Source of the DNA: Archangium sp.
GTDB lineage: Bacteria > Myxococcota > Myxococcia > Myxococcales > Myxococcaceae
Length of the DNA stretch: 64,000 bases
Assembly (NCBI GenBank): GCA_030681645.1
Contig: JAUXRX010000057.1
Location: forward strand, 186,001-250,000
Direction: 5' to 3'
Shown: positions 6,794 to 44,711 of the stretch, one piece after another
Position numbering within the stretch: position 1 is the stretch's first letter
Layout: each line of letters begins with the position of its first letter
Made by a program: the position numbers and the translations under genes
Notes under the pieces: model-generated
What the model was told of the DNA's origin: nothing
The model's database searches: none
The model's input: only the letters and a program-made list of their open reading frames with translations

Positions 6794-8482
6794 TCAGGCG
6801 CCAGCCTCGAGCTGGAGCTGGGTCTGAAGGGAGGTCTCTTCATCTGTCTCTGGTCGCTCCGCCTTGGCCAGTTCTCCGCTGCGCTCCGAGCCTGGCTGGT
6901 CTGACGTTCCGTCAGACCGGCTCCGCTCCGGGTCGGGCTCTGCGTCCATGGCCTTCTCGGCGGCGAGCAGCCTCTCGGGCTTGTTGGCCCGGGCGCCGAG
7001 CTGCACCACCTTGTTGGCGATGGCGAGCACGTTGCCCTTGCCGTTGGACAGGCGTCCCCGCGCGCCCTCGAAGGCGTTCTGCGCCTGGTTGAGCCGCTCG
7101 CCCACCTCGTTGAACGACTCGAGCGCGGCCGAGAGCTTGTCGATCATCTTCCCCGCTTCCTCGGCGATGCGCTGGGCGTTGAGGGTCTGCCGCTCGCTGC
7201 GCCAGACGTGGTGCACCATCTGCAGGGTGGCGAGCACGGTGGTGGGGCTGCACACCACCACCCGCTGCCGCAGGGCCTCCTCGGAGAGCCCGGGACAGCG
7301 CGAGAGCGCGGCGTGGAAGGCGGCCTCGCTGGGCACGAAGAGGAAGACGAAGTCGAGTGAACGTTCCTTGAGCACCGACTGGTAGTCCTTGGCCGAGAGC
7401 AGCTTCACGTGGGTGCGCAGCGACGCCACGTGGGCCTCGAGATCGCTTTCCCGTTCCTCCTCGGAAGCGGCCCGGGTGGACGCCACGAAGGCCTGGAGCG
7501 AACACTTGGCGTCGATCACGATGGCGCGGTTGGGCGGCAGGTAGACCAGCGCGTCGGGGCGGCGGTGACCGCCCTCTTCATTGCGGTGATCGACCTGGAG
7601 CTCGTACTCGCGGCCCTCGGTGAGGCCGGCGCTGGCGAGCAGGCTCTCGAGCACGAGCTCGCCCCAGTCGCCCTGCGCGCGCGATTCGCCGGTGAGGGCG
7701 CGGGAGAGCGCCGAGGCGTCTTCATGGAGCCTGCTCTGCGTTTCCTGCAGGATCCGGAGGCGCTCGAGCAGCGACGCGCGATCGCGGCTGTCCTGATCGG
7801 AGCTGAGCTGGAACTTGTCTTCGAAGTCCTTGAGCCGCTCGCGCACGGGGGTCAGCAGCCCTTCGAGGCTCTTGTGGTTCTGCTCGAGCATCGACCTGCC
7901 CTTCTCTTCGAGCAACTTCTGCCCCAGGGCCTCGAACTCGAGCCGCATGGCCTTTCGGCTGCGTTCGAACTCGAGGGCCCGCTCTTCGGTGCGGGCACGT
8001 TCGGCGTCGAGCAGCGACTCGGTGCGGGCCAGCGCCTCGGAGAGCACCTGCGCGCGCTGCTGCAGGGGCTCGAGCGCCCCGAGCTGTGCCTCGAGCGTCT
8101 CCCTGCGTTCAGCAGCTGAGCGGGCCTCGGCCTCGGCGCGGGCGAGCTGGGCCCAGGCCTGGTTCAGCTGGGCCTCGAGCGTGGCCTCAGACGTGCGGAG
8201 CTGCTCGACCTGCGTGGCCAGCATGCGGCCGATCGCGTCGGCGCGGGCGTACTCCGCGCGGGTGGTGGTGAGCACGCCCGAGAGTTGCTCCTCCTGCATG
8301 GTGAGCTGGGACACCTGGTGATCGACCCGCGCCAGCGCCGCGTCGCGCCCGGAGAGCTGGGCTCTGGCCGCTGCGAGATCCATCTCCATCACGCGCAGCG
8401 CGGCGTCGCGAGACCTGCGCGCGAGCAGCCACCCCAGCGCCCCGCCGACGATTCCTCCCAGCACTGTGAGCGCGAAAATCAT
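6794..8482 (-). CDS. rmuC: DNA recombination protein RmuC
   Basis: RmuC-family proteins limit inversions at short inverted repeats and resemble nucleases; the mechanism is not settled. Residues 2-20 form an N-terminal membrane anchor ([17 protein letters not shown]), followed by a coiled coil to about residue 200 rich in Ala, Glu, Gln and Arg. The RmuC domain follows, with [29 protein letters not shown] and the nuclease-like DAKCSLQAF. Length 562 aa is somewhat over the usual 400-500. The excess is the last 50 residues, partly encoded by a dispersed repeat at 6848-6890 ([15 protein letters not shown]). It is the first gene of a likely rmuC-mutS-DUF3592 unit. Confidence 0.92.
6848..6890. repeat. 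Dispersed repeat family A, copy 1
   Basis: About 43 bp sharing GGTCGCTCCGCC, GGCCAGTTCTCCGCT and GCTCCGA with 42587-42630, differing at only a few positions. A more diverged reverse-complement copy lies at 39839-39882. This copy is inside the 3' end of rmuC. Confidence 0.8.
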
Positions 8483-37714: not shown

Positions 37715-39760
37715 ATGAAGCAACTGACGATCACCACGATCCTCGCGGGCGCGCTGCTGTTCGCCTGCACGCCACCGGCGACCAAGTGCACCACCTTCGC
37801 CGACTGCCTGACCAACCAGGTCTGCGTCCAGGGAGAATGTCGCGGCGGCCTCGCCGGCGGCACGGGCGGCAGCGGTAACGGCCAGGGCGGCGGCGTGGGC
37901 GCAGGTGGCGGTGGCGGCACCACCAGCGGCGGCGGCACGGGCGGCTCCGGCGGCGGCGTCACCGGCGGCGGCACCGGCGGCGGCGTGACGGGCGGCGGCA
38001 CCGGCACTGGCGGCGGCGGCCTGGTCGAGCCCGACGCAGGCGTGAACCCCACCTACGACGGCGGCTGCGGCCCCCCGATGCCCGGCAACCCCACCATTCG
38101 CCGGCTCTGCGCGGCGCCCACCCTGAGCGAGTGCGACGGCCCCACCGACTCCGCCCTCACCAGCGGCAGCGTCCCCGCGGCGCGCCTCAACGGCACCCAG
38201 GGCAACGGCTTCGATGACGACTGCGACGGCGAGGTCGACGAGGGCTGCTTCTGCCCCGCCAACGGCGTCACCAAGGACTGCTACCTCGTGCCCGCCACCC
38301 AGGTCAGCGACGTCAGCGGCCTCCCCGTGGGCTGGTGCACCAACAACGCGAAGGGCAGCCTCGACTGCTCCGGCGGCGAGCTCGCCACCTGGTCTGGCGT
38401 GTGCCGCGGCGCGCAGCCCCCTGCGCTCACCGATTCCTGCGCGTCCGGTGACTACAACTGCGACGGCCTCTCGGGGAACAACGCGGCCGAGGGCTGCATG
38501 TGCCCCAACAGCGTGCAGTGCCCGAGCAACACCATCACGCTCGCGCCGTACCCGAACCCCAACGCGATCCCCATCATCGACGGCTCGCAGTGGATCACCG
38601 ACGTCGCCGCCCGGAACCGCACCACCAACTGGGCGTGGACCGTGCTCGGCGGCGACTGCGACAACGTGCTGCCCAACCCCACCTTCGCCATCTACAACCA
38701 GACCAACTCCACGATCGGCGGAGCGCGCCGCGGCACCCGCACCGGCGTGCGCCTCGACGCCACGCAGACGCCCGCCCGGTACGTGGTGCAGGCCAATTCC
38801 CCCCTCATCGGCATCCAGGCGACGGCGTACGGCAACGGCGCCAGCGGCGGCCAGGTCTTCCCCGCCTTCGGCCTGTCCGGTGACTACATCGTGCAAGGCG
38901 AGTTCACCCTCGACGGCCGCACCTACAGCTGCACCCAGAAGGTCCAGGTGCGCGCCCCGGGCATCCGCGCAGAGCTGTGCTGGGACAACGTGGGCAGCAA
39001 CGACGTCGATCTCCACTTCGCCCGCCTGCAGGGCAACACCTGCACCACCCGCGGCTGGACGACCACCTGCATGAACGGCAACGGCTCGGTCCAGGACTGC
39101 TACTACTCGACGCTCTCGAGCTGCCCGAACGGGAGCACCACCACCGGCTGGGGCTACACCGCGTCGGCGACCACGGCCTGCCAGGGCTGGTCGAGCAGGC
39201 GCACCTCGGCCTGCAGCAACCCCCGCCTCGATCGCGACAACGTCTCGTGCACACGCGGCGAGACCGACCCGACCGCGGGCTCGTTCTGCGGCCCGGAGAA
39301 CATCAACCTCGACAACCCCAACAACGATGACGCCTTCGTGGTCGGGGTGAACATGTACTCGGGCGCGAACAGCAAGCCGCACGTGAACCTGTACTGCAAC
39401 GGTGAGCGCGTGGTCTCCGTCGGCTACAACCCGGCGACGGGCCAGACGGCCTTCCCGCTGCTGAGGAACGCGGGCGCGGGCACCTCGGGCGACTTCTGGA
39501 CGGTGGCGACCATCAAGGCGAACGTCGCGGGCGGCAACCTGGCCTCGTGCACGGTCACCACCGTCCCCTCCCGGGTGGCCAACGCCAGTCGCGATGGCCT
39601 GCCGAACATGGGCTCGACCGGCAACGACATCTGCGTGGACTCCGCCGCGACCGACGCGACGTTCCGCTACACGTCCAAGGCCTTCGTCGAGAACGCCACG
39701 GGCCAGGGTCTGGCGCCCGGCGCGCAGCCGATGACGGCGACGCAGTGGTGCAAGCACTGA
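37715..39760 (+). CDS. Large lipoprotein with MopE-like metal-binding motif and Gly-rich linker
   Basis: A 681-aa protein with lipobox LLFAC (Cys at 18), a Cys knob (CTTFADCLTNQVCVQGEC) and a roughly 60-residue Gly/Thr/Ser linker. Next come Cys-rich stretches with DDDCDGEVDEGC, the MopE-like putative Ca-binding motif seen in myxobacterial surface proteins. Residues about 390-590 form a beta domain with ELCWDNVGSNDVDLHFARL and NPNNDDAFVVGVNMYSG, resembling YfaP-like or jelly-roll domains. The protein is probably on the cell surface. It is divergent from the membrane kinase, 108 nt apart. Confidence 0.82.
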   Translation: MKQLTITTILAGALLFACTPPATKCTTFADCLTNQVCVQGECRGGLAGGTGGSGNGQGGGVGAGGGGGTTSGGGTGGSGGGVTGGGTGGGVTGGGTGTGGGGLVEPDAGVNPTYDGGCGPPMPGNPTIRRLCAAPTLSECDGPTDSALTSGSVPAARLNGTQGNGFDDDCDGEVDEGCFCPANGVTKDCYLVPATQVSDVSGLPVGWCTNNAKGSLDCSGGELATWSGVCRGAQPPALTDSCASGDYNCDGLSGNNAAEGCMCPNSVQCPSNTITLAPYPNPNAIPIIDGSQWITDVAARNRTTNWAWTVLGGDCDNVLPNPTFAIYNQTNSTIGGARRGTRTGVRLDATQTPARYVVQANSPLIGIQATAYGNGASGGQVFPAFGLSGDYIVQGEFTLDGRTYSCTQKVQVRAPGIRAELCWDNVGSNDVDLHFARLQGNTCTTRGWTTTCMNGNGSVQDCYYSTLSSCPNGSTTTGWGYTASATTACQGWSSRRTSACSNPRLDRDNVSCTRGETDPTAGSFCGPENINLDNPNNDDAFVVGVNMYSGANSKPHVNLYCNGERVVSVGYNPATGQTAFPLLRNAGAGTSGDFWTVATIKANVAGGNLASCTVTTVPSRVANASRDGLPNMGSTGNDICVDSAATDATFRYTSKAFVENATGQGLAPGAQPMTATQWCKH

Positions 39761-39773
39761 CACTGAGTCTGGT

Positions 39774-39900
39774 TTGCCCTCTCCCCGACCCTCTCCCCCA
39801 CCAGCGAAGCCGGTTCAGCGGAACGCTGGACCAGCGCATCTGAAGCGAAGCGGAAGATGCGCCAAGGCGAAGCGACCAGAGACTCGGGGAGAGGGAGACA
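39774..39900. repeat. REP-like family C, copy 4, split by an insert with a family A copy
   Basis: The left arm CCCTCTCCCC (39789-39798) and right arm GGGGAGAGGG (39886-39895) match copy 3 but are separated by 87 nt instead of 3. The insert contains a CCAGCG/CGCTGG hairpin (39801-39829) and a diverged family A repeat (39839-39882). It lies between the large lipoprotein gene and the second Mla ATPase gene. Confidence 0.75.
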
Positions 39901-39910
39901 GTTTGCGTCC

Positions 39911-40585
39911 GTGAGCACCCTCTCGCTCCGAGGCATCACCAAGCGCTTCGGCGCAGCCACCATCCTCGAGGGGCTCTCGGTGGAGATACCCCTCACGGGC
40001 ATCACCTTCATCGTGGGCACCTCGGGGAGCGGCAAGTCGGTGCTCTGCCGCCTCGCGGTGGGCCTGCTCAAGCCCGACGCGGGCGAGGTGTTTCTCTTCG
40101 ACCAGCGCGTCGACACCATGCCCGAGCGCAAGCTGCAGCAACTGCGCGCGCAGGCGCCATACCTGGTGCAGGGCCCGGCGCTGCTCGACTGGCTGACCCT
40201 CTTCGACAACGTGGCGCTGGCCGACCCGAAGTCGCGCGAAGACGGGCGGGCCGAAGCGGCGATGACGCGGCTGGGGCTGATGCAGTTCTCGGGGCGGAAG
40301 CCGCCCGAGGTGGGCCCCGGCATCCGCAAGCGGGCCGCCATCGCCCGGGCGCTGGTGCTGGAGCCTGAGGTGCTGCTGCTCGACGAGCCCACCACGGGGC
40401 TGGATCGGGAGGCGGCGGGCCAGGTGAACGACGCCCTGGCCCTGGTGCGCGAGCAGGGGTTGGGGGTGGCCCTGGTGTCCCACGACTACGACGCGCTCGG
40501 AAAGCTCGCGGACCGGGTCGTTCAGGTGAAGGATCGGCAGGTCGGCTACTGCGGCCCGGCGAAGGACTTCCCGCGAGAGAGATGA
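39911..40585 (+). CDS. MlaF-like ABC ATPase with degenerate signature motif
   Basis: A 224-aa nucleotide-binding subunit from GTG 39911. Walker A is GTSGSGKSV (36-44), the Q-loop is in LVQGPALLDWLTL, and Walker B with catalytic Glu is VLLLDEPTTGLD (D158, E159). The switch His is present in LVSHDY (H191). The signature is broken: VGPGIRKR (134-141) replaces LSGGMRKR, so its own signature face should be inactive. This is the exact complement of the ATPase at 27 kb. An MCE gene follows after one base, so the pair is the second half of an Mla-type transporter. Confidence 0.88.
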   Translation: MSTLSLRGITKRFGAATILEGLSVEIPLTGITFIVGTSGSGKSVLCRLAVGLLKPDAGEVFLFDQRVDTMPERKLQQLRAQAPYLVQGPALLDWLTLFDNVALADPKSREDGRAEAAMTRLGLMQFSGRKPPEVGPGIRKRAAIARALVLEPEVLLLDEPTTGLDREAAGQVNDALALVREQGLGVALVSHDYDALGKLADRVVQVKDRQVGYCGPAKDFPRER

Positions 40586-40586
40586 C

Positions 40587-41597
40587 ATGGACGAGAGTCG
40601 GCTCGAACTCAAAGTAGGCGCGCTGGTGTTGGCGGCGGTGCTGGGCGCCTTCACCCTGCTCGTGCTGATGGGGGAGCTCTCCTTCGGCGGCGCGAAGAAG
40701 ATCACCGTCGACTTCTCCCACACGGGGAACGTGGTGAAGAACGCACCGGTGAAGCTGGGCGGCGTGGTGGTGGGCAAGGTGGAAGACGTCGAGCTGCTCG
40801 CCTCGCGCCGCGACGCCGAGGGCAGCCCGCTGCCGGTGAAGATGACCCTGGGGCTCACCAACGACGCGGCGGCCTCGCTGCGCACCGACGCGATCGTCAC
40901 CGTGTCGAGCGTGGGCCCGCTGGGAGAGTCCTACCTCGAGGTGTACTCGGGCTCGGCGAAGGACCCGCATGATCCGAAGGTGCCCATTCGCGGGCTCGAT
41001 TCTCCCCGCATCGACGTGGTGAGCAACCGGCTGGCGAAGTTCCTCGACGCGGCCTCGCGCGTGCTCGAGAGCGATCCCGAGGCGCTCACCAAGCTCGTGC
41101 GCGGCGTGGGCGGGCTCACCACCACCGTCGACGGGGTGATCGTCGAGAACCGCGAGCAGCTCAAGACCCTCGCCAGCGAGCTCTCGATCGCGGCCGCCGA
41201 TCTCCGCGTGCTCGCCGCCACCGCCCGCAAGCAGCTGGAGCCGGGCGGCAAGGCCAACGCGCTCCTCGACGACGCGGCGGCGACGGCGAAGGTGGCGCGG
41301 GCCGAGCTGCCCGAGCTCTCGAAGCAGGCGTCGATCGCGCTGGGCGGGCTGGCGCGCGTGTCGGGGCCGTTGACTGAAGAAGACGGTCAACGCCTCAAGG
41401 CGATGATCGTGAAGTACCAGGAGGCCGGCGAGAAGGTCGACGCCCTGGCCAGCCGCGCGGACCGGGTGCTGGCCAAGCTCGAGGCCGGTGAAGGCAGCAT
41501 GGGCAAGGTGTTGAAGGACCCCGCCGTGTACGACGAGCTCAAGACCCTGCTGACCGATGTGCGCAAGAACCCCTGGAAGCTGCTCTGGAAGGACTGA
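40587..41597 (+). CDS. MlaD-like MCE-domain protein
   Basis: A 336-aa protein with an N-terminal membrane anchor (KVGALVLAAVLGAFTLLVLM) and an MCE domain at about residues 38-130 (VDFSHTGNVVKNAPVKLGGV, DAIVTVSSVGPLGESYLEVY). A long helical region follows to the end (about 140-330), with heptad-like Ala/Leu spacing as in MCE proteins that extend across the periplasm. MCE hexamers form the lipid channel of these transporters. The start is 1 nt after the ATPase stop. Confidence 0.92.
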   Translation: MDESRLELKVGALVLAAVLGAFTLLVLMGELSFGGAKKITVDFSHTGNVVKNAPVKLGGVVVGKVEDVELLASRRDAEGSPLPVKMTLGLTNDAAASLRTDAIVTVSSVGPLGESYLEVYSGSAKDPHDPKVPIRGLDSPRIDVVSNRLAKFLDAASRVLESDPEALTKLVRGVGGLTTTVDGVIVENREQLKTLASELSIAAADLRVLAATARKQLEPGGKANALLDDAAATAKVARAELPELSKQASIALGGLARVSGPLTEEDGQRLKAMIVKYQEAGEKVDALASRADRVLAKLEAGEGSMGKVLKDPAVYDELKTLLTDVRKNPWKLLWKD

Positions 41598-41740: not shown

Positions 41741-42571
41741 ATGGACGTCCGATTCTGGGGTGTACGTGGCAGCGTGGCGTCATCTGGTTCAAACGTCGCG
41801 AAGATCGGAGGCAACACCTCGTGCCTGGAGCTGGAGAGCCAGGGCCACCGGTTGATCTTCGACGCGGGCACGGGCCTGCGCAGCCTGGGCGACTGCCTGA
41901 TGAAGTCGCCGCCGGTGAAGGCGACGATGCTCTTCTCGCACCTGCACTGGGATCACGTGCAGGGCTTTCCCTTCTTCTCGCCGGCCTTCATGCCCACCAC
42001 CGAGCTGACGATGTACGGGCCGGGCGCCGACGGTGAACAGCAGCTGCAGTCGGTGCTGCGCAAGCAGATGGAGCCGCCGAACTTCCCCGTCCCCCTCTCC
42101 GCCATGCGCGCGAAGATGGACTTCCGCTCGGCCGTGCCCGGCGGGGTGATCGAGACGGGTCCGTTCCGCATCACGCCGTTCGACCTGCCCCACCCCCAGG
42201 GCTGCATCGGGTACCTGGTCGAGGCCGACGGCTGCCGCTTCGCCTACTGCACCGACGTCGAGATGACGCTGGAGTCGCTGCGCAGCGACGTGGGCGACGT
42301 GCTCAGCGGCGTCGACGCGCTGGTGCTCGACGCGCAGTACACCCGCGACGAGTACGAGGGCCGCGTAGGGCCTCCGAAGAAGGGCTGGGGCCATTCCACC
42401 AACGTCGACGCCGCGCGCATCGCGCAGTCGGTCGGCGCGGGGCGGCTGTTCCTCTTCCACCATGATCCCGGTCACGTCGACACCCAGGTGGAGGACATGG
42501 CCGAGGAAGCCCGCCACTACTTCCCCGCCAGCGAGCCGGCCCGCGAGAACAAACGCATCTCCCTGGGGTGA
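41741..42571 (+). CDS. Metallo-beta-lactamase-fold hydrolase
   Basis: A 276-aa protein from ATG 41741 (MDVRFWGVRGSVASSG). The HxHxDH motif is in LFSHLHWDHVQGFPFF, preceded by GGNTSCLEL and FDAGTGLRSLGDCL. Further ligands are YCTDVEM and FHHDPGHVD. The N-terminal FWGVRGS motif is typical of a phosphodiesterase-like MBL subgroup often linked to signalling. The substrate is uncertain; a cyclic nucleotide or related phosphodiester is possible. Its stop overlaps a GTG (GTGA) of the next frame. Confidence 0.9.
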   Translation: MDVRFWGVRGSVASSGSNVAKIGGNTSCLELESQGHRLIFDAGTGLRSLGDCLMKSPPVKATMLFSHLHWDHVQGFPFFSPAFMPTTELTMYGPGADGEQQLQSVLRKQMEPPNFPVPLSAMRAKMDFRSAVPGGVIETGPFRITPFDLPHPQGCIGYLVEADGCRFAYCTDVEMTLESLRSDVGDVLSGVDALVLDAQYTRDEYEGRVGPPKKGWGHSTNVDAARIAQSVGAGRLFLFHHDPGHVDTQVEDMAEEARHYFPASEPARENKRISLG

Positions 42572-42586: not shown

Positions 42587-42630
42587 CTCTGGGTCGCTCC
42601 GCCTCGGCCAGTTCTCCGCTCCGCTCCGAT
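42587..42630. repeat. Dispersed repeat family A, copy 2
   Basis: Same element as 6848-6890 (GGTCGCTCCGCC, GGCCAGTTCTCCGCT). It lies between the MBL gene and the likely start of the sigma-54 activator, or would be translated if the activator starts at GTG 42568. Confidence 0.8.
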
Positions 42631-42681
42631 TCTTTGCCTTGCACCACCGGCCCCTTGGGGTTGGACTCACTGCTCCTCGAG

Positions 42682-44659: not shown

Positions 44660-44684
44660 CTCACGAAGTGGCCCCTCACCCCGG

Positions 44685-44711
44685 CCCTCTCCCCGCTCCG
44701 CAGGGAGAGGG
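44685..44711. terminator. Bidirectional hairpin, REP-like family C copy 5
   Basis: The arms CCCTCTCCC (44685-44693) and GGGAGAGGG (44703-44711) have a 9-nt loop. It lies between the stops of the secreted-protein gene and the converging kinase gene, so it can terminate both. Confidence 0.65.

Follow-up and report, generated by a model that had tools for sequence, protein, structure and literature searches.

Repeated nesting of a small structured repeat in REP-like hairpins of an Archangium genome

Introduction

Within a 64,000-nucleotide stretch of Archangium sp. contig JAUXRX010000057.1 (hereafter, the window), a palindromic repeat between two genes is opened in its loop by 87 nt that carry a copy of another repeat. 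This arrangement raises the question of whether one repeat inserted into another, and, if so, in which order the two arrived and how often this has happened. We compared the genome to which the window belongs (G000) with five congeners (G001 to G005), all fragmented assemblies, and searched a total of 40 genomes for the inner repeat, called M here, with a covariance model (CM) built from 30 copies. Individual loci are referred to by L numbers.

Results and Discussion

Anatomy of the composite

The outer element is a REP-like palindrome of approximately 45 nt. Both of its hairpin arms, as described in the earlier note on this DNA, are present in the window, forming an inverted repeat that is 89% complementary over 18 nt, and the 87 nt between them do stand in place of the usual short loop, which is commonly 2 to 5 nt long in G000 (Table 1). 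The insert holds a copy of the note's family A, which is our M, with two small hairpins. The trinucleotide CTC at the end of the insert is the commonest native REP loop. The note had proposed looking for a target duplication around the insert, and none is evident. In comparisons with 200 shuffles, the composite gives the better fold in 199 cases as DNA (z = -3.2) and in every case as RNA (z = -3.9). A phage origin was rejected, as the 127 bases have no match in a phage collection.

Table 1. Features of the window; positions count from its first base.
Feature	Position	Strand	Basis
Inverted repeat of the composite	39777..39895		Arms 89% complementary over 18 nt
Left part of REP, with CCCTCTCCCC twice and GA between (double arm)	39777..39798	+	Read from sequence
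REP left single arm CCCTCTCCCC, followed by GA spacer	39777..39786	+	Sequence
REP left single arm CCCTCTCCCC	39789..39798	+	Sequence
Expanded 87-nt loop in place of usual short loop	39799..39885	+	Sequence
M repeat copy, core	39803..39877	+	CM 99.1 bits, E 1.5e-18; nhmmer
First M hairpin, with a GNA triloop and compensatory stem changes	39813..39831	+	
Second M hairpin, with compensatory stem changes	39834..39862	+	
CTC at end of expanded loop	39883..39885		
REP right arm GGGGAGAGGG	39886..39895	+	Sequence, inverted-repeat match
Upstream gene, 681 aa, stop codon immediately 5' of element	37715..39760	+	No Pfam match
Gene for an ABC-transporter ATPase, probably starting at the GTG at 39911	39911..40585	+	PF00005; orthologs in congeners
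MlaD-like gene	40587..41597	+	PF02470
REP without M, 3-nt loop	35421..35455	-	
REP without M, 3-nt loop	35976..36010	+	
REP variant without M	44673..44711	+	
M copy of different subfamily, outside any REP	6852..6927	-	92.4 bits
Decayed M copy, after gene ending at 42571	42592..42655	-	33.5 bits, alignment

The composite had been placed in the promoter region of the ATPase gene, a reading that finds no support because the same two genes lie only 2 to 35 nt apart, between aligned flanks, in G002, G003, G004, and G005 (the ATPase ortholog of G004 is 93% identical). For the same reason, the element can be said to have split a close gene junction. Neither REP nor M is present in the orthologous junction of these four congeners, and both therefore arrived at this locus after the split from G004. 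The purine-rich right arm lies approximately 13 to 24 nt upstream of the probable GTG start, and a long stable hairpin precedes the ATPase gene. The effect of an element that separates two close genes and adds a long hairpin to the ATPase leader would likely be neutral or mildly regulatory, and it is possible that the leader hairpin alters ATPase expression.

Two independent repeat families

Allowing at most one mismatch, we counted 457 double-arm REP sites in G000, covering approximately 0.2% of the genome at about 46 nt each, against 415 in G003, 318 in G004, 82 in G005, 50 in G002, and 1 in G001. The element is a REP in the broad sense, being a short GC-rich palindrome with well over 100 copies in G000 that is intergenic at the inspected loci, and the commonest head ahead of its arm is TTTG. 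Double-arm REPs are abundant in exactly the three species that bear M and scarcer in the M-free congeners, which may reflect a joint expansion of both families.

M is a non-coding structured repeat with a core of about 75 nt, or about 85 nt with its edges, a length at which it encodes no transposase and is not an insertion sequence of the REP-targeting kind. The CM search detected at least 121 copies in G000, 83 in G003, and 60 in G004; the remaining 37 of the 40 genomes, congeners G001, G002, and G005 among them, gave none. A genome-wide scan for the M signature returned 72 stretches. M is present in 32 of these, which come exclusively from two myxobacterial MAGs and contain 39 matches in total, with 38 scoring above 50 bits. 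A spread of M outside the genus was rejected, as the remaining 40 stretches scored at most 31.6 bits and were taken as chance.

M is found within REPs, as solo copies, and as tandem arrays that repeat approximately every 85 nt. When the 127-base composite was used as a query, 56 matches were obtained in its own genome, a search that favors composites. The M copies retrieved are the best-scoring ones. A signature of M only, by comparison, has 45 exact copies in G000, 15 of which lie in REPs as judged by their flanks, and 77 of the 99 rows in the nhmmer table of M copies (where the copy in the window fills two rows, one of them under L001) are outside REPs. M and REP are thus independent families. 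Six contigs of G000 (C10, C15, C36, C52, C59, and C66) end at or inside M arrays, and array lengths are therefore probably underestimated in the assembly.

The structure of M consists of two hairpins in which 97.1% of alignment cells are paired, with 79 double-change cells; shuffled alignments had 26 such cells, and slid controls had no more than 8. Four GNA triloops recur in a set of 104 distinct full copies, with G and A nearly fixed and the middle base variable. GNA triloops are very stable in DNA. We dropped the balance of G.T over A.C cells (69 versus 22) as an indicator of strand preference, since 47 of the 69 G.T cells come from one pair. When the ends of the M consensus, AGCGNAGCC and GCGNAGCGACC, were inspected, they showed no terminal inverted repeats of the kind that define a MITE.

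Elsewhere in the window, the M copy at 6852 to 6927, whose subfamily differs from that of the 99.1-bit copy in the composite, is read as the 3' end of a 562-aa open reading frame, which we take to be RmuC-like; the gene just downstream is presumably MutS-like. A second subfamily was also seen in a REP of G003 (L143). The decayed copy of Table 1 has an intact M copy at its orthologous site in G003 (L196), so some M insertions predate the species split.

Mobility of M

Direct repeats of at least 5 nt span 16 of 48 solo M units, compared to 6.5% after random reassignment of flanks among units and 17% in the highest of 1,000 such shuffles, although about 6 of the 16 appear by eye to be the starts of a further tandem unit. 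At M-free congener sites, the flanking repeat is present as a single copy (L225, L231, L232, L235, and L245). Because solo copies are often flanked by repeats of about 5 nt that exist once where M is missing, M moves, and many solo sites fit transposition with target duplication. The same is observed at L021, where a REP arm is interrupted by M with TCTCC on either side and the REP is uninterrupted in G004. Insertions at the REP apex are different, with a duplication in only 1 of 18 units versus 7.8% in shuffles; the target-site duplication expected of a MITE is therefore found for solo M and not for the apex copies. Either the reaction in the loop differs, or M has been passed between REPs by exchange.

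Several copies or arrays of M lie at apparent gene start codons (L231, L244, L245, L225, and L232) and are flanked by CATG or CACG on the M strand, which suggests that the start codon has been duplicated on either side of the element. A copy in G003 (L120, 1501 to 1575) lies between direct repeats of approximately 26 nt, far above the usual 5.

As candidates for the mover, RAYT and other Y1 transposases were considered and rejected. The sole Y1_Tnp gene found in G000 is at a contig end (L085, G000:C48:229-552), with no REP arm within its 2 kb, and none was found in G001 to G005, though G003 and G004 hold both repeats. A Y1 transposase is therefore an unlikely mover.

REP first, M second at 11 loci

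A search of G000 for exact REP arms separated by a loop of 72 to 102 nt gave 17 matches per strand, none in a reversed control, at 13 loci, and M is present at all 13, so the insert that the earlier note had asked for in other loops does recur. About twenty nested pairs were identified, including the window copy. Split arms plus insert are not the normal full-length element, however, as a REP is usually free of M: in a set of 30 loci with exact double arms, chosen in list order, loops are mostly 2 to 5 nt long, 3 REPs carry M (L034, L036, and L058), and 1 holds what looks by eye like a remnant (L057). M is found in REP hairpins, mostly in the loop, far above their share of the genome (15 of 45 copies versus approximately 0.2%).

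We queried 18 composites, the window and 17 others, by their flanks and recovered an orthologous site for all except L003. At these 17 sites, nhmmer detected M in a REP in none of the congeners; the sole M in the orthologous loci is a separate copy outside a REP (L273). In contrast, a REP in the same orientation and without M is present in at least one congener for 11 of the 17, in G003 for L011, L012, L029, and L062; in G004 for L002, L005, L007, and L008; and in two congeners for L021 and L006 (G003 and G004) and L004 (G004 and G005). This count leaves out L015, with a weak REP, and L022, with a REP in the opposite orientation in G005 only. For 13 of the 17, an automatic scan of the junctions picked up a REP-like hairpin in one or more congeners; the background of the scan, which includes these sites, is 59 hits on both strands over 140,492 bases of those loci. 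No REP was found in any tested congener at the sites of L001, L025, and L026, and only a remnant at L020. The opposite orientation at L022 shows that separate gain of a REP does occur, whereas the matching orientation at the 11 others argues for one older REP. At L004, the REP of G005 has a short loop, and G005 is without M by the CM search. Composites of their own are present in G003 and G004 at other loci (for example, L117, L143, L250, and L254).

At these 11 composites, the REP came first and M second, which bears out the earlier claim that one repeat inserted into another. The relative age order drawn from that claim holds there but is not established by the window itself, where G002 to G005 lack both repeats; for this reason, we infer, by analogy with the 11, that the window composite arose from a REP that later received M. 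Taken together, the sequences indicate that M has entered older hairpins many times and in both orientations. A tree of 45 M copies mixes REP and solo labels, with 12 changes compared to a shuffled mean of about 15, and 0% of bootstrap trees have a single REP origin, but with one well-supported branch only, it is too poorly resolved to serve as an arbiter between one and many entries into REPs.

Weighing the explanations

The explanation that we consider very probable is nested insertion, with a REP-like palindrome on the outside and a mobile, structured M inside. Non-coding M would be mobilized in trans by an enzyme encoded elsewhere. It inserts at many kinds of sites, often with a target duplication of about 5 bp, and it is also found in REP hairpins, chiefly in the loop and in either orientation; the loop might be preferred as exposed or hairpin DNA. 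The compensatory base changes among M copies agree with a conserved fold. Points against this explanation are the lack of target duplication at apex copies, the failure of the Y1 search in G000 to G005 to give a mobilizing enzyme, and the window locus, where both steps are unseen in G002 to G005. A further proposal is that M needs folded single-stranded DNA (or RNA) in order to move and prefers to land in the hairpin loops of another repeat, with element and target both recognized by their hairpins rather than by sequence. This is doubtful; the four GNA triloops with nearly fixed outer bases and a variable middle are cited in its favor.

The missing duplications at apex copies could instead reflect the entry of M into most REP loops by exchange, with a REP that has M handing its loop to another through short arm homology (by template switching or gene conversion). 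Left junctions of composites are often identical (CCCC-CGG-M), and the palindromic arms would permit both orientations, which are indeed mixed (M is parallel to the double arm at the window locus, L002, and L003 and antiparallel at the others). We regard exchange as possible but rather unlikely, given that loop edges are of the recipient type (L004 retains GCTG...CAG, as in its M-free G005 ortholog), that L021 is a direct insertion into an arm with duplication, that a second M subfamily also occupies a REP (L143), and that the tree, poorly resolved as it is, intermingles copies from REPs with solo ones. If, alternatively, the composite were a single mobile unit, with REP arms as its ends and M as its interior, both would have spread together, as the absence of the whole composite from the window locus in four congeners, the lack of a REP in congeners at L026 as well, and junctions common to some composites might suggest. 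The REP-only orthologs at 11 of 17 composites, the occurrence of M alone at many places and of REP alone at hundreds, and the different REP loop types that hold M make this improbable.

A reversed history, in which the composite is ancestral and congeners dropped M by deletion inside the loop, is scarcely credible. The L057 loop with its apparently truncated M remnant indicates that loss can occur, yet M is kept in no orthologous composite, exact loss down to a short loop would have been needed many times, and G005, without any M by the CM search, has the L004 REP. It has also to be asked whether M is a cis-acting RNA, an attenuator or riboswitch-like element selected for regulation in leaders, as its conserved structure with compensatory changes, the several arrays against start codons (L231, L244, and L245), and the stable leader fold at the window locus would allow. 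This is very improbable for a repeat that occurs in many unrelated contexts in both orientations, forms tandem arrays, is present in three species only among 40 genomes, and has no Rfam match above threshold (14.7 bits, a chance-level score, against a cut-off of 90). Nested insertion thus remains the preferred explanation. Under it, the genus constitutes a natural time series, with M-free species alongside three M species in which different REPs are filled, which makes hairpin-loop targeting by a tiny non-coding element directly testable and provides many dated insertions. REP loci are shown growing into larger structured intergenic elements, in one case splitting a close gene junction.

Comparison with known systems

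Several insertion sequences target REPs, including ISRm22, ISPsy8, ISPa11, ISPpu9/10, IS1397, and IS621 (Tobes and Pareja 2006, PMC1525189); ISRm22 inserts at the palindrome axis, and ISPa11 is described without a direct repeat. M is like these elements as mobile DNA that breaks a REP and unlike them in having no transposase gene, in being only about 85 nt long and structured throughout, and in inserting outside REPs as well. The YPAL/RU-2 element of Yersinia (168 bp), reviewed together with other small bacterial mobile repeats, is non-coding, with internal inverted repeats, targets with dyad symmetry, and target duplications of 3 to 26 bp (Delihas, PMC2229807). M shares with YPAL/RU-2 a non-coding sequence that has internal inverted repeats, is not A+T rich, and lacks TA ends, together with target duplications that vary in size and targets at or beside dyad symmetry, a likeness drawn from descriptions.

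The pneumococcal repeats BOX, RUP, and SPRITE have inserted into one another and form modular arrays (BMC Genomics 2011;12:120, PMC3049150), so that small repeats are nested several times, as M and REP are here; they belong to a different organism, and hairpin-loop targeting is not described in the accessible part of that paper. As a short palindrome with hundreds of copies, the outer element resembles REP/BIME sequences, but the head of RAYT-linked REPs is GT(A/G)G, and one study found such REPs only in gammaproteobacteria (Nunvar et al. 2010, PMC2817692), whereas the REP of this genome has no such head and no adjoining RAYT gene, and no Y1 gene was found in G003 or G004. Among open-licence papers, we found none on M or on its nesting in REPs. 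REP-targeting elements and repeats nested in repeats are already known; the novelty lies in their pairing here, in which a tiny, structured, non-coding element found in three species only has repeatedly filled the loops of an older hairpin repeat.
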